Of a stretch of DNA of 64,000 bases, positions 11,986 through 21,031 are shown one piece after another. The notes under the pieces are model-generated. The model saw only the letters and a list, made by a program, of their open reading frames with translations. It had not been told where the DNA came from and searched no databases. Position 1 is the first letter of the stretch. Each line of letters begins with the position of its first letter. Source of the stretch: Desmonostoc muscorum LEGE 12446 (GTDB taxonomy: Bacteria; Cyanobacteriota; Cyanobacteriia; Cyanobacteriales; Nostocaceae); NCBI RefSeq assembly GCF_015207005.2, contig NZ_JADEXS020000001.1:3162001-3226000 (forward strand), given 5' to 3'. The position numbers and the translations under genes were made by a program.

Positions 11986-12768
11986 TTAATTAATTGCTTC
12001 GCCAAGGTGTACGCTAGTGCGATAAACCAGGTACACAAAACCACTTTCATCATGAAAATTCTGATATAATTCTTGAAAACTATCAATAAGTTTGTTGTCT
12101 GCTAAACCTTCATTAGGTAGATAAGAAACGCTTTTAGCTCGTCCAATAAGTCCAGTTAAATCTAACTGTTGTCTATAAGTAAAAATGTATTCGCGGATGT
12201 TGATAAAATGAGGAGTTGCTAACAGTGGCTCTACTGACTGCATCCTTGATTCTGCTGGGTGATTGTTAGATGCTTCGCGGACTATTCGGCTATATTCTGC
12301 CGTTAAAGCATCTTCTTGATCGCGGTTATTCCACACCACTGCTAAACGTCCTGATGGTTTTAAAATTCGATGAAATTCTGATAATGCTGGTTCTGGATTG
12401 AACCAATGGAAAGCTTGAAAACAAGTAACTAAATCAACAGATTTATCAGAAATGTTGGTAAATTCTGCTGTTCCATCACGAAACTCTACTAAAGGGTGTG
12501 GTTCTGCGGCTTCTCTCATGCTCGCATTTGGTTCAATGGCGATGACATTAACTCCACACTCTGCTAATAGTCTGGAACTAATTCCTGTACCTGCACCAAT
12601 ATCTGCTGCTACAATTTGTAAATTTTTATCTAATCCTTCCAAGATAATATCAATTGCCGCTGGGGGGTAGCTTGGTCGGTATTTGACATAATCTTCCGCT
12701 CTATCAGAAAATCGGTTGAGCGGGTTTAGGGTATGTAGAGGGGTTGTTTCAGAATTACTTTGATTCAT
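11986..12768 (-). CDS. Class I SAM-dependent methyltransferase (UbiE/type 11-like)
   Basis: The 260-residue protein starts with FSDRAEDYVKYRPSYP, a segment typical of this family, followed by SAM motif I VVAADIGAGTGISSRLLAE (about residues 52-70), acidic IEPN (motif II) and the FQAFHWFNPEPALSEFHRIL stretch that is standard in type 11 methyltransferases. The substrate cannot be told from sequence. The gene abuts ureD but there is no known functional link. A copy with its middle deleted sits at 15113-15314 in the same orientation. Confidence 0.85.
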   Translation of the reverse strand: MNQSNSETTPLHTLNPLNRFSDRAEDYVKYRPSYPPAAIDIILEGLDKNLQIVAADIGAGTGISSRLLAECGVNVIAIEPNASMREAAEPHPLVEFRDGTAEFTNISDKSVDLVTCFQAFHWFNPEPALSEFHRILKPSGRLAVVWNNRDQEDALTAEYSRIVREASNNHPAESRMQSVEPLLATPHFINIREYIFTYRQQLDLTGLIGRAKSVSYLPNEGLADNKLIDSFQELYQNFHDESGFVYLVYRTSVHLGEAIN

Positions 12769-15112: not shown

Positions 15113-15314
15113 TTAAATTACTTCGCCAAGGTGTACGCTAGTGCGATAAACCAGGTACATAAAACCACTTTCATCACTGAAGCGCTGATATAATTATTTA
15201 AACCTCTCAATAATTTGTTGGTCAATATTTTACATAATCCTCTGCTCTATCAGAAAATCGGTTGAGTGGATTTAAGGTATCTAAGGCGATTGTTTCAGGA
15301 TTAATTTGGCTCAT
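15113..15314 (-). pseudogene. Internally deleted copy of the 11986-12768 methyltransferase
   Basis: The first 30 codons (MSQINPETIALDTLNPLNRF, then SDRAEDYVKY) and the last codons (SVHLGEAI-like, same DNA GTGTACGCTAGTGCGATAAA) of the intact methyltransferase gene are both present, joined at about 15217-15226, with some 580 bp of the middle missing. The two copies are in the same orientation and bracket the radical SAM/methyltransferase pair. The remnant cannot encode a working enzyme. Confidence 0.85.
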
Positions 15315-15432: not shown

Positions 15433-15663
15433 ATGGAAAGATTGCTAAACATCCACATTGAGAAATTACCTGAAGGCGTTTATTTAGCAACATCTGATGA
15501 GCTTCAAGGTTTAGTAGCTCAAGGACGGACTGTTGCTGAAACTTTAGAAATTGCCCGTGATGTAGCACGTAAGTTATTAGAAGCACAATCTGAAGATCAA
15601 CAACTACATTATTTGCAACCAATAGCTGAACAATTTAACTATCCTTTAGTTATAGGTCAGTAG
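15433..15663 (+). CDS. hicB: HicB-family antitoxin
   Basis: The 76-residue protein LLNIHIEKLPEGVYLATSDE then LQGLVAQGRTVAETLEIARD matches the partial RNase H fold of HicB antitoxins, in which the order antitoxin-toxin is common in cyanobacteria. It should neutralise HicA. It is followed by a hicA-like reading frame whose coding sequence begins at the hicB stop. It lacks a separate DNA-binding domain, so autoregulation is unclear. Confidence 0.75.
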   Translation: MERLLNIHIEKLPEGVYLATSDELQGLVAQGRTVAETLEIARDVARKLLEAQSEDQQLHYLQPIAEQFNYPLVIGQ

Positions 15664-15863
15664 TCAACAGAGAGATTATCAAAATATTAAAAACCTTTGG
15701 TTTTGTTTTTCATCGTCAAGCCGCAGGGAGTCATGAAATCTGGTTTAATGCTGAAACTAATCGTTATACTACTATTCCCAATCATTCTGGTGATATGCCA
15801 GAGGGAACATTACACGCTATTTTAAAGCAAGCTGGTATTGAACCTGAAGATTTTCTTAATTGA
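15663..15863 (+). pseudogene. hicA: HicA-like mRNA interferase without a visible start codon
   Basis: An open frame of 66 codons reads REIIKILKTFGFVFHRQAAG then SHEIWFN, then NHSGDMPEGTLHAILKQAGI and ends EPEDFLN. This is a good HicA: a dsRNA-binding-like fold with the catalytic histidine in GSHEIW. No ATG, GTG or TTG occurs in frame between the preceding stop and the conserved core; the codons at the expected start are AGG TCA GTA GTC AAC. Either a rare start (ATT at 15675) is used or the 5' end has decayed. The core itself is intact. Confidence 0.6.
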
Positions 15864-16166: not shown

Positions 16167-18836
16167 TTATACTGCACCTTGACGTATCATCTCAAAACCA
16201 TATACATAGATATCGGCAAATTTATAGCGTTGGTCTTTTTCGCGCCATTCAATAATGCCAATTTCACTTAAAAAAGAAGCAAATTCTTCAAAATCTGCTA
16301 TATCATGTGCAGACTCTTGCCATATACTATCTAATTCATCTTGAGTTAAAAAAGCTGATTTATACTTGAGAGATTCAAAAAAATTAGCCAAATCAGGATA
16401 TTCCTCTCGGATTTCATCACAGCGTTTTTCTGATGCTTTCTTCAACCCGAATTCTAAAGATTTACTTCGCAGTAAACGGTCAGTAGGTGGTTGGATTGAT
16501 GATTTCCCTTTATAGCTTAATTCTTGCTCTTTTGCTCCTTCTAATAATATACTTAAACTCCGAGGAAAAGTAGTGCCACTTGAGTCTGTTAATCGTTCAT
16601 AAACCCATCGAGATACATATTTAGCTTTGTCTCCTGTTCTGCGACGACTTCCCCAAAGTAATTCTAAAGCTTTATCAATCACTTCTTCACTAGCTTGATC
16701 AATACTTTCAACAGCAATAGGAGAAAATTTATCAACCAAGTTCTTGAAATCTTGAGATTGTATTACTTGGCGCAGTGCTAATCGTAAAAAATCTACCCTA
16801 GTCCACTGTAAAAGAATATCGCGTCCATTGAAATGACTTTTGTTGTCGAAAATTAAGCGATTCCATATATCTTCTCTTAAGAAAACTTTAAATCTAATTG
16901 CTGTTAATCTGTTGGCATCACAAGACTGAATCAATTGAAATAAGCCGGTGATTGCTTGCTGTCTTACTTCTCCTGCTTGACGAAAATCTTCATCTAAATC
17001 ATCGTAAAGAAACCACAGTTTTTGAGATTTATTTTGGGCTTCTTGATTAATTATATTTATGACATCTTTGACGATAAGTCGCAAATGAGAATCAGTAGAT
17101 AATTGTAGCAAAGCTTGGGTAGATTCATACTGCCATCCTTCTTTAGGTAACTTATTAATAATTTCTTTCAATCCGCTAAATTTATGATTTCTAGGGAATT
17201 TAAATAATTTTTCTTGATGACATCTCAGCAGTAAATAAGCTCTCCAAAAAGATTCCCATGTTCCATCCTTTTGCTGCAAATCTCGATGGATGACTTGGAA
17301 TTCATCACGAGAGGGACGGCTTTCCTTAAATCTACCATGTGCTGACAAAAATACAGTATTATCCAATCGGCCATGAGCAAGTTTTTGGCCAACGCTTTTG
17401 TGTTTTAGAAAAAGCGAATACAGAGCAGTTTTACCTGTTCCTTTTCGTCCTCTTATCAAACAGGTAGTATCATCTAAGAATTTTTCAAAATCAGTTGTAC
17501 GCTGAAATATTAGACCCAAATGTTCTGTATCAGCAGCATTTACTTCAGGAAATTGCAGGCTTTCAATAATAGTCCAGCGTTTTTCTGAGTTAGCTAAGAC
17601 ATTTTGGCGTTGGAGTTCATCAGTTTCTTCATCAATCAAATTGGCAATTTTATTATAGTAATCTAGTAAAGCGGGGACAGGATAGTTGTCAGCCAAAGCA
17701 ATTACCTGTATGTAAGGAACTACTAAAGGTTCTTCTATTTTTGATTGATAATTATCTATATCTTCCTCATTATGGGATTTTTCATTGTTTACTATTTCTA
17801 TCCTTTTAAACAAAGATTTACAAATTTGTGTTACTTTAGCTAAGCCTATTTTAGTAACATCAGGTACAGGAGAAAAAACAAAATTCATTGATAAATTTTT
17901 CAGGCTTTTAAGCGATTGTAAAAGTAGTTCTATACCCTGTTTATTTTGTTCATTAGGGAAAAGGAAAATAATTGCTTCGTCAGCAGCTTCGATTAATGAT
18001 AAAGCTCCCCATTGATTAATTCCAGTTCTGGAATCAATTAAGAGAATATCTGGTTTTAATTGTTCGTAAATTTCACGCTTAAAAACAGACCAAAGACTTT
18101 GATCTCCATCAATAACAGTAGTAGCATGGAGATCATCAACCTTAGAAACATAATCAAGATTAAGAAAACCAGCAGGAACAACAAATAATCTCCCTGTAGC
18201 GTTAGGTATTCTCACTTCACCAAATATTTCTGCAATTGAAATATTTGGCTCTATTCCTTCTGGTAAGTAGGAACGCTCATAAAAATAGTCAACAATTCCA
18301 TATTTTGGTTGTGGTTTGAGGTCGAATGCTGTACTCAAACCCGGTGCTTCTAAATCTAAATCAACAGCTACAACTTTACGTCCCCGCATTGCTAAAATCC
18401 AAGCAACATGAGTTAATGCTGTAGTACGTCCTACTCCTCCTTTAAAGGAATAAAATGTCACTGTCCTGGGTAAACTAGGTTCGCGCTGGGGTGTAGTTAA
18501 TTGATTTTGCGGATTAGCTGCTTGAATTGCTAAATCTTGCCACGTTTGTACTGAAGCTGTATTAAAAGCCTGCGGTGCTGAAAGATTTAGTGAATCTGCT
18601 TCTTGAAGCGTATATAAGGAAATAAACCCAGCAGATAAATGAGGAACTTGTGATTTAAATAAGTTAGAAATTTGTTCTTTGCGTTGAGGAATAGATAAAT
18701 TAATAAAGCGATCGCTGACAATAGTCAAATTCAATAAACCTGATGTAGAAATATTTAAATCAACCCATTCTTTTGAATTATGCACATACTGGTTTGTAAT
18801 TTCCTGTTTTAGCAAAACCTGCCAACTTTCCTGCAT
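16167..18836 (-). CDS. Dual P-loop ATPase: KGGVGR-variant ParA-like domain fused to Sll1717-type ATPase
   Basis: The 889-residue protein has three visible parts. Residues 1-100 are a small alpha/beta domain. Residues 122-400 are a MinD/ParA-type ATPase with the variant Walker A FKGGVGRTT (131-139), VDLDLEAPGLS (158-168) and LLIDSRTGINQW (265-276); the GRTT and DSRTG forms mark a family often found in bacterial conflict systems. Residues 415-889 hold a second P-loop, IRGRKGTGKTALYSLF (461-476), a Walker B LWFLYDDLDED (607-617) and a winged-helix-like end, resembling the Sll1717 group. A strong AGAGGTGG site lies 12 nt after the stop of the HEPN-like gene, so they are one operon. The role is unknown; a defence or stress-response switch is inferred. 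Confidence 0.7.
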   Translation of the reverse strand: MQESWQVLLKQEITNQYVHNSKEWVDLNISTSGLLNLTIVSDRFINLSIPQRKEQISNLFKSQVPHLSAGFISLYTLQEADSLNLSAPQAFNTASVQTWQDLAIQAANPQNQLTTPQREPSLPRTVTFYSFKGGVGRTTALTHVAWILAMRGRKVVAVDLDLEAPGLSTAFDLKPQPKYGIVDYFYERSYLPEGIEPNISIAEIFGEVRIPNATGRLFVVPAGFLNLDYVSKVDDLHATTVIDGDQSLWSVFKREIYEQLKPDILLIDSRTGINQWGALSLIEAADEAIIFLFPNEQNKQGIELLLQSLKSLKNLSMNFVFSPVPDVTKIGLAKVTQICKSLFKRIEIVNNEKSHNEEDIDNYQSKIEEPLVVPYIQVIALADNYPVPALLDYYNKIANLIDEETDELQRQNVLANSEKRWTIIESLQFPEVNAADTEHLGLIFQRTTDFEKFLDDTTCLIRGRKGTGKTALYSLFLKHKSVGQKLAHGRLDNTVFLSAHGRFKESRPSRDEFQVIHRDLQQKDGTWESFWRAYLLLRCHQEKLFKFPRNHKFSGLKEIINKLPKEGWQYESTQALLQLSTDSHLRLIVKDVINIINQEAQNKSQKLWFLYDDLDEDFRQAGEVRQQAITGLFQLIQSCDANRLTAIRFKVFLREDIWNRLIFDNKSHFNGRDILLQWTRVDFLRLALRQVIQSQDFKNLVDKFSPIAVESIDQASEEVIDKALELLWGSRRRTGDKAKYVSRWVYERLTDSSGTTFPRSLSILLEGAKEQELSYKGKSSIQPPTDRLLRSKSLEFGLKKASEKRCDEIREEYPDLANFFESLKYKSAFLTQDELDSIWQESAHDIADFEEFASFLSEIGIIEWREKDQRYKFADIYVYGFEMIRQGAV

Positions 18837-18848
18837 TTGACCACCTCT

Positions 18849-19289
18849 TTAAAGTTGAGTAGCTTGCTTTTGTAACCACCCCTTGAGATTCTGATAAGCT
18901 TTTAGCCAGCGTTTGTAACTTTCATCATCAGGCTCAAGGCCACAATAACGCATATCTATAAAATTTTGGCTATTTGGATTTTCCACTTCATTAAGCCATT
19001 TTCGCACTTCAGGAAAATTATCAATTCTAGATTTAAGTCGATTGTGCCGCTTTAATGCTTCTATGTAACTATGTCCCGGATTAGTAATAGTATGCCCAGG
19101 ATTAGTAGAATCTGTCTTCCATTCCTGAGTTGCACCCTTTGGTAAGGTAGCAAAAATCATTGCTTTTAATAAACACTCAATGGTTACACCTCCAAAGTGC
19201 ATAGCGGCTACTCTTCTTTCCGATTCCTTTCTACATAATATTTCAGTATCAAGGTGACGCTGCATAAAAGCAGCTTGGTAATCTTCCAT
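18849..19289 (-). CDS. HEPN-like small helical protein
   Basis: The 146-residue protein is all-helical in pattern. RVAAMHFGGVTIECLLKAMI (26-45) fits the second helix of HEPN domains (usual form A-x-H-xx-A-x-E-xx-LKA), GHSYIEALKRHN (72-83) fits the following helix, and MRYCGLEPDDESYKRWLKAY (113-132) fits the RYxD-type turn and last helix. The classical RxxxxH RNase motif is not at its usual place; R26-H31 has that spacing but in the wrong helix. The start at 19289 (MEDYQAAF) was chosen because the frame to 19328 runs into the groEL terminator. It precedes the dual ATPase gene by 12 bp. Confidence 0.55.
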   Translation of the reverse strand: MEDYQAAFMQRHLDTEILCRKESERRVAAMHFGGVTIECLLKAMIFATLPKGATQEWKTDSTNPGHTITNPGHSYIEALKRHNRLKSRIDNFPEVRKWLNEVENPNSQNFIDMRYCGLEPDDESYKRWLKAYQNLKGWLQKQATQL

Positions 19290-19328
19290 TTCGTTATTTT
19301 CTCGTTTTAAACACCTGAATCTTGACAC

Positions 19329-19372
19329 AAAAAAAATAGCCGCCTCCGCAAAGGAAGCAGCTATTTTTACAA
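19329..19372 (-). terminator. Rho-independent terminator of groEL
   Basis: On the minus strand AAAATAGCTGCTTCC, a TTTGC loop and GGAGGCGGCTATTTT form a 15-bp stem followed by a run of T. It lies 20-60 bp past the groEL stop and just before the HEPN-like gene on the same strand. Confidence 0.9.

Positions 19373-19390: not shown

Positions 19391-21031
<1,641 letters not shown>

Follow-up and report, generated by a model that had tools for sequence, protein, structure and literature searches.

Does a two-gene operon of the cyanobacterium Desmonostoc muscorum LEGE 12446 form a defence system, and if so, is that system a new one? The operon lies on the minus strand of a stretch of 64,000 nucleotides (nt) of its genome (RefSeq assembly GCF_015207005.2, contig NZ_JADEXS020000001.1, positions 3,162,001 to 3,226,000; hereafter, the window). 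The original prediction, made from the letters alone, described a candidate for an as yet undescribed conflict or defence system consisting of a HEPN-like protein of 146 residues (A) and a protein of 889 residues (B) that joins two ATPases. In the present study, we found that the A-B pair is probably a bacterial immune system that is already listed as a candidate, PDC-M28, and that occurs here in a fused form. New here are the fusion of modules B and C, a BolA-like start of B, for which the evidence is weak, and an alternative set of residues in A.

Two papers (PMC12988326 and PMC10855318) trace PDC entries to a 'guilt-by-embedding' screen and treat most of them as unvalidated; a third (PMC11811056) calls them unpublished candidates. 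PDC-M28 was not mentioned in the literature that we searched, in which subscription journals and bioRxiv are thinly covered, so that this is a weak negative. A literature search for KGGVGR or Sll1717 gave no relevant paper.

Results

Relation to PDC-M28

Both open reading frames (ORFs) were found as predicted, on the minus strand and with the lengths given above (Table 1); a GTG codon upstream of gene A provides an alternative start, which would give 159 residues. In PADLOC-DB 2.0.0, A matched PDC-M28A (E = 4.4e-6), and the two halves of B matched M28B (1.8e-40) and M28C (6.3e-29), as judged by E-value and not by PADLOC's own score cut-offs. All three modules are thus already listed as candidate PDC-M28 A, B, and C, and the word "undescribed" cannot be maintained; such a listing was among the outcomes that the original prediction had named as refuting it.

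A search with M28C gave a match in 21 of 24 cyanobacterial genomes. The E-values of eight separate C genes were 1.6e-60 to 1.1e-80, and those of unbroken fused B proteins were about 5e-20 to 8e-30. The three-gene order A (144-175 residues), B (454-473 residues, with KGGVGR), and C (504-528 residues) was seen in seven of eight loci (L065-L071; the locus is broken in L072), and PADLOC, run on one of these seven (L066), named all three modules. Because the modules match and the three-gene form is also cyanobacterial, we assigned the window operon to PDC-M28 as a fused variant. The two forms may also stand side by side: in L067 (420-6350), the fused operon and a separate three-gene PDC-M28 are about 2 kb apart. 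Another genome, which carries B in fused form and also C as a gene of its own, has an extra ORF of 912 residues with an M28C match of 3.3e-30 (G320:C208:74437-75627).

Protein A

Protein A gave no Pfam or NCBIfam match at E<=0.1, and its profile gave no match to solved structures at E<=1. Its AlphaFold2 model (predicted local distance difference test score, 92.7) aligned best with HEPN structures. The HEPN fold of the original prediction is thus borne out, and the absence of such a fold is ruled out within the limits of that structural comparison; with its modelled four-helix fold, A would belong to the HEPN superfamily.

We aligned 26 of 76 A proteins together with three canonical PDC-M28 A sequences (29 rows in total). 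E38, C39, K42, and H73 were present in all 26, and R114 and Y115 in 25; the only miss was a shortened sequence (L118). The three canonical rows have the same six residues. The ribonuclease (RNase) motif Rx4-6H was absent from all 62 rows of a further alignment (A1), in which R114 was kept throughout, and from all 28 of the 29 rows that cover the region; Rx3H occurred in three rows. For HEPN families without the Rx4-6H His, PMC3710099 presents a Glu-Lys-His-Arg set that may serve as an alternative RNase site. The pattern of the AF0298/AbiV type was found in A, with Ex3K/R in helix 2, a His between helices 2 and 3, and the motif Arg, the helix limits being those of the AlphaFold2 model.

Protein B

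Two P-loop modules had been predicted in one chain, at residues 131-276 and 461-617, and both lie inside the limits of NCBIfam domains: AAA_KGGVGR at residues 123-309 (E = 2.9e-49; 168 bits, curated cut-off 90) and ATPase_Sll1717 (NF047389) at residues 434-874 (E = 1.2e-42; 146.6 bits, curated cut-off 75). The latter has the Walker A sequence GRKGTGKT (17427-17450) and a Walker B-like YDDLD (within 16989-17018). Among 43 chosen relatives of B, KGGVGRT, the residues G463, K465, G, T, G, K469, and T470 of the second Walker A, and D612 and D615 of the Walker B-like stretch are invariant; thus, both ATPases look intact. Between them, residues 340-430 show low identity in most of 13 relatives.

The head of B is tentatively BolA-like. 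At a threshold of E<=1, all 15 chosen rows matched PF01722 at residues ~31-77; even the best match (E = 0.0046) scored below the Pfam cut-off. In a separate set of five B proteins, the BolA match appeared in three and not in two. The profile of the head matched the PDB entries 4pui (E = 0.012), 5y4b (BolA-like protein 2; 0.2), and 5zb6 (1.6), as well as an unrelated viral chain (0.47). We take 4pui (titled SufE-like) and 5zb6 (UVI31+) to be BolA-type structures. Two His residues, which we assume to be typical of BolA, are not conserved in the alignment of B (A2). The same profile found the head in three loci of Bacillota (3e-9 to 1e-18) and, weakly, in Pseudomonadota (7e-13 to 2e-3, and 0.2 in L144, which is cut by a contig end). 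In a structure search with B, the match list was filled by the ParA domain.

Linkage and distribution

Gene A was found in 24 of 386 cyanobacterial genomes, including that of D. muscorum itself, a patchy distribution. It directly precedes B in 22 of 23 cyanobacterial relatives; in the exception (L027), A is reduced to a remnant in the same position between groEL and ureD, and B is absent. Among named genomes, we studied the best 80 of 229 relatives, which span Cyanobacteriota, Chloroflexota, Bacillota, Pseudomonadota, and Thermodesulfobacteriota. Gene A precedes B in 75 of these loci. In the other five, either B is at or near a contig end (L125, L139, and L144), or the end of A is all that is left (L101), or there is no A (L107). 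These counts agree with the predicted operon coupling and rule out homologues that lie scattered and never co-occur. The original prediction had also taken a strong site 12 nt after the first gene as a sign of coupling. The Shine-Dalgarno-like AGAGGTGG is present directly after the stop codon of gene A, with 4 nt between its end and the ATG of gene B; the 12 nt are in fact the entire spacer, which reads AGAGGTGGTCAA on the coding strand.

In L101, L107, and L118, B has persisted, but A is missing or truncated. A quick tree built from 65 B rows placed the cyanobacterial L130 and L150 with proteobacterial rows (100 and 98 in the Shimodaira-Hasegawa-like approximate likelihood ratio test), which suggests transfer; the tool warned of long branches and paralogues in this tree. 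In a genome of the same genus (G068; L030, 9939-10616), what is left of A between groEL and ureD is split by an insert and merges with the end of the methyltransferase frame, and this remnant marks the loss of the operon at the same groEL-ureD site.

Mobile copies and neighbours

Relatives were present on eight contigs of IMG/VR. When six of them were compared with NCBIfam, the KGGVGR domain was above the cut-off in all six, and the Sll1717 domain was matched in five, above the cut-off only in L157. A small gene with ExxxK and RY stands before the B relative in L154, L155, L156, L157, L159, and L160, with profile support of 2e-7 to 0.1; PADLOC named this gene in L157 (2.9e-21) and L155.

In L155, the fused gene is flanked by the portal gene (phrog_68) on one side and by phrog_91 ('nicking at origin of replication') on the other; head and terminase genes are found further out, and judged by this gene order, the prophage is P2-like. 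PMC9122126 names this interval, which in P2-like phages runs from gpA to gpQ, as a hotspot for anti-phage systems. In L160, the three-gene form adjoins genes for portal, terminase, and capsid proteins, which share 40-52% identity with their L155 counterparts; gpA was not found within the 15 kb examined. L156 has tail genes on one side and an integrase on the other, and L159 is flanked by an integrase and by moron/tail-fibre genes; the L159 gene, searched as DNA, gave no match in E. coli genomes. L157, near replication genes, has a typical three-gene PDC-M28 (A, 2.9e-21; B, 1.2e-82; C, 4.4e-113). A fused copy with 32% identity is on a Nostoc plasmid, near hsdR and a recombinase gene. Carriage as prophage cargo is in our view the strongest evidence for defence.

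In a scan of neighbours, 123 of 166 ORFs picked beside 20 non-cyanobacterial loci were compared with PADLOC at E<=1e-8, and 124 families were matched. Among the 25 matches listed, mad2 had three members and 24 families had one each, including ZorD, DpdE, DrmD, BrxHI/II, HmaA, RT_UG29, RTasDnaG-like, SoFic, and PDC-M26A. These counts refer to families and not to ORFs, a single ORF may lie behind several helicase models, and the scan had no background set. Five neighbours in the window gave one PADLOC match, a methyltransferase (mad2).

Two small genes lie directly behind the operon (15433-15861, plus strand); by eye, we take them to be a HicB-HicA toxin-antitoxin pair. The first has no PADLOC match, and relatives of it are also present in L033, L080, L081, L086, and L090. 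Upstream of a radical-SAM-like gene, a short duplicate (15222-15311, minus strand) repeats the start of the methyltransferase gene (11986-12768, minus strand), as if the stretch between them had been inserted with a partial duplication.

The groEL-linked site and module trees

In 22 of the 80 loci, groEL shares the strand of A and stands upstream of it; all of these loci are from Nostocales genera by title except L089. In L102 (Okeania), groEL is nearby on the opposite strand. groEL and A are separated by 100-262 nt in 15 of the 21 loci measured. The sequence TATAC or TATAG occurs within 60 nt upstream of gene A in 18 of 26 Nostocales-type loci, including those with groEL 2-3 kb distant; the search pattern was crude, and by eye it is part of a longer conserved stretch. 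It is absent before gene A in L074, L080-L083, L086, L099, L100, and the window. Since the window and its near relatives lack this promoter-like stretch (19289-19370), gene A stands directly behind the groEL terminator, and a comparable terminator-like element is ahead of gene A in close relatives. In the window, A and B may be expressed by read-through from groEL or from another promoter.

With 22 sequences, A, B 1-330, and B 430-889 each rejected the trees of the other two in approximately unbiased (AU) tests, with log-likelihood differences of 289 to 2585. In a control with two halves of groEL (21 sequences), the differences were only 20 and 34 units. Because the module trees are far more discordant than those of the groEL halves, the modules appear to recombine. 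Recombination of this kind is often seen at immune loci and fits defence, which is suggestive and not proof. The ratio of nonsynonymous to synonymous substitution rates (dN/dS) was 0.09-0.30 in 18 comparisons, indicating purifying selection.

Table 1 Features of the A-B operon and its surroundings in the window
Feature	Position	Strand	Basis
Gene A, 146-residue HEPN-fold protein, PDC-M28A relative, putative effector	18849..19289	-	ORF
Gene B, 889-residue fused double ATPase, PDC-M28B and M28C relative	16167..18836	-	NCBIfam, PADLOC
BolA-like N-terminal domain (tentative), B 1-90	18567..18836	-	PF01722, PDB profile search
KGGVGR-variant ParA/MinD-type ATPase, B 123-309	17910..18470	-	KGGVGR at 18426-18443
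Variable linker, B 331-433; short B forms end nearby	17538..17846	-	Identity, AU tests, short forms
Sll1717-family P-loop ATPase, B 434-874	16215..17537	-	NF047389
12-nt A-B spacer with Shine-Dalgarno-like AGAGGTGG for gene B	18837..18848	-	Direct reading
Terminator-like hairpin with T run downstream of groEL; ~39 nt from its end to the start of gene A	19329..19368	-	Direct reading
groEL, upstream neighbour in many Nostocales; context, outside the system	19391..21025	-	ORF, neighbour comparison

Discussion

We are fairly confident that the A-B pair is a defence module. The predicted conflict or defence role has become likely through the prophage-borne relatives, and the patchy, partly decayed occurrence and the apparent exchange of modules at the groEL-linked site also favour it; the check for defence islands that had been proposed along with it gave no clear signal. 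Somewhat less firmly, we favour the reading that the pair is a fused PDC-M28 variant in which B senses infection and releases A, and A stops the cell. B would act as sensor and switch, binding ATP and changing its state on a phage or plasmid cue; its Sll1717 half would meet the cue and its KGGVGR half would relay it, and the BolA-like start could offer a docking surface or a second input. A would be kept silent by B and then be released or assembled into an RNase with a site of Glu38, His73, and Arg114, the alternative HEPN site proposed for AF0298 and AbiV. It would then halt translation, and the infection would abort. That A is an RNase effector has, in our estimate, an even chance.

Several observations weigh against this reading. 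As Rx4-6H is missing, A may have no RNase activity. In five of the 80 loci, B is cut off near residue 405-420 and has no Sll1717 half, and such short forms would not be expected if both ATPases were strictly needed. The prophage evidence comes from distant relatives and not from the window copy; the small gene of L155 has weak scores (0.1 with our hidden Markov model and 0.0035 in PADLOC), that of L159 has no PADLOC match, and 50,697 named phage records contain no relative at E<=1e-10. The neighbour scan gave no clear defence-island signal in either direction, and the locus is fixed behind groEL in many Nostocales. The two halves of groEL are themselves nominally incongruent (AU p = 0.036 and 0.0008). 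Finally, in the window protein PF01722 scored 17.7 bits, below the cut-off of 25.7 for the BolA family.

The short B forms possibly reflect decay or an exchange of modules. We rejected a split gene as the explanation of the ends near residue 406, because no Sll1717 part follows in L128, L131, L138, L143, or L153. In three genomes of one genus (two of them Microcystis), a GmrSD_N/DUF262 gene (PF03235, E = 2e-26 to 5e-26, above the cut-off) begins just behind a B that terminates near residue 406; in the Microcystis loci L143 (9437-11093) and L153 (9336-10959), a further gene of about 180 residues follows. This gene (183 residues) was considered as HEPN_MAE_28990 and gave no match there. Against the PDB, the DUF262 gene gave weak matches only (7p9k, DUF262, E = 0.17). 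By eye, no DUF262 gene was recognised behind the similar B ends in L128, L131, and L138.

If the pair serves defence, A could still be a non-catalytic adaptor or a nucleotide- or RNA-binding subunit, and the harm would then be done by B or a bound host factor. The absence of Rx4-6H from every row that covers the region agrees with such a role, as does the retention of A beside short B forms without Sll1717; according to PMC3710099, some HEPN families no longer have the motif and possibly only bind their substrate. The Glu, Lys, His, and Arg set of the proposed alternative site is conserved in all five phyla and also where the three genes are separate, which argues against such a role; we regard a non-catalytic A as possible but rather doubtful.

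Two further explanations place the pair outside phage defence. In a toxin-antitoxin or addiction unit, A would be a toxin held by B, and the pair would serve its own persistence. An antitoxin of 889 residues with two ATPases would be very large; moreover, A has been lost or cut with B kept in three loci, both genes have decayed in L027 and L030, and L155 is located in a defence hotspot. This explanation thus seems unlikely to us, even though the small HEPN gene comes first and its partner second, one copy is on a Nostoc plasmid beside hsdR, and HEPN toxins are common in toxin-antitoxin pairs (PMC3710099). In the other explanation, the pair would be a housekeeping module for stress that belongs with groESL, and the ParA-type ATPase would work in positioning or protein quality. 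It would account for the groEL-linked loci and for the start of A ~39 nt behind the groEL terminator in the window and near relatives. No same-strand upstream groEL was found in the other 58 of the 80 loci, some of them on short contigs, and A is confined to a small minority of the 386 genomes, is carried by prophages, and often has its own upstream element even where groEL is 2-3 kb away; we consider a housekeeping role very improbable.

For the fused PDC-M28 variant that we prefer, a more specific architecture can be proposed, and we do so tentatively, expecting that it is rather wrong than right in full: BolA-headed ParA/MinD-type and Sll1717 ATPases would form a modular, recombining sensor with a swappable half (DUF262 in Microcystis) that unlocks a HEPN RNase with a non-canonical Glu-His-Arg site. 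If true, an immune system would be run by a ParA-type switch, which to our knowledge is unusual, and the compact pair would be simple to test. PDC-M28 is one of many defence candidates known only from a database. Our study adds several points that we found described nowhere: the fold and a candidate active site of the small subunit, a natural two-gene fused form, relatives in the P2 hotspot of defence genes, and indications that modules are exchanged.

Comparison with known systems

The window operon resembles PDC-M28 in having the same three modules, adjacent and in the order A, KGGVGR, and Sll1717, and its protein A has the residues E38, C39, K42, H73, R114, and Y115 in common with three canonical A proteins. 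It differs in that B and C are a single chain, whose M28C match is weaker than those of separate C genes, and in the start of B: the canonical B starts that we inspected are different, and no BolA-like stretch was seen there. With AF0298/AbiV-type HEPN proteins, A shares the set Glu38-x3-Lys42, His73, and Arg114, a proposed alternative RNase site; in contrast to them, the partner of A is a double ATPase. BolA-like proteins (PF01722) show a weak profile likeness to B at residues ~31-77. Compared with the MinD/ParA/Soj ATPases, in which the usual signature ending presumably stands where B has KGGVGR, the ParA-type domain of B is fused to a second ATPase.

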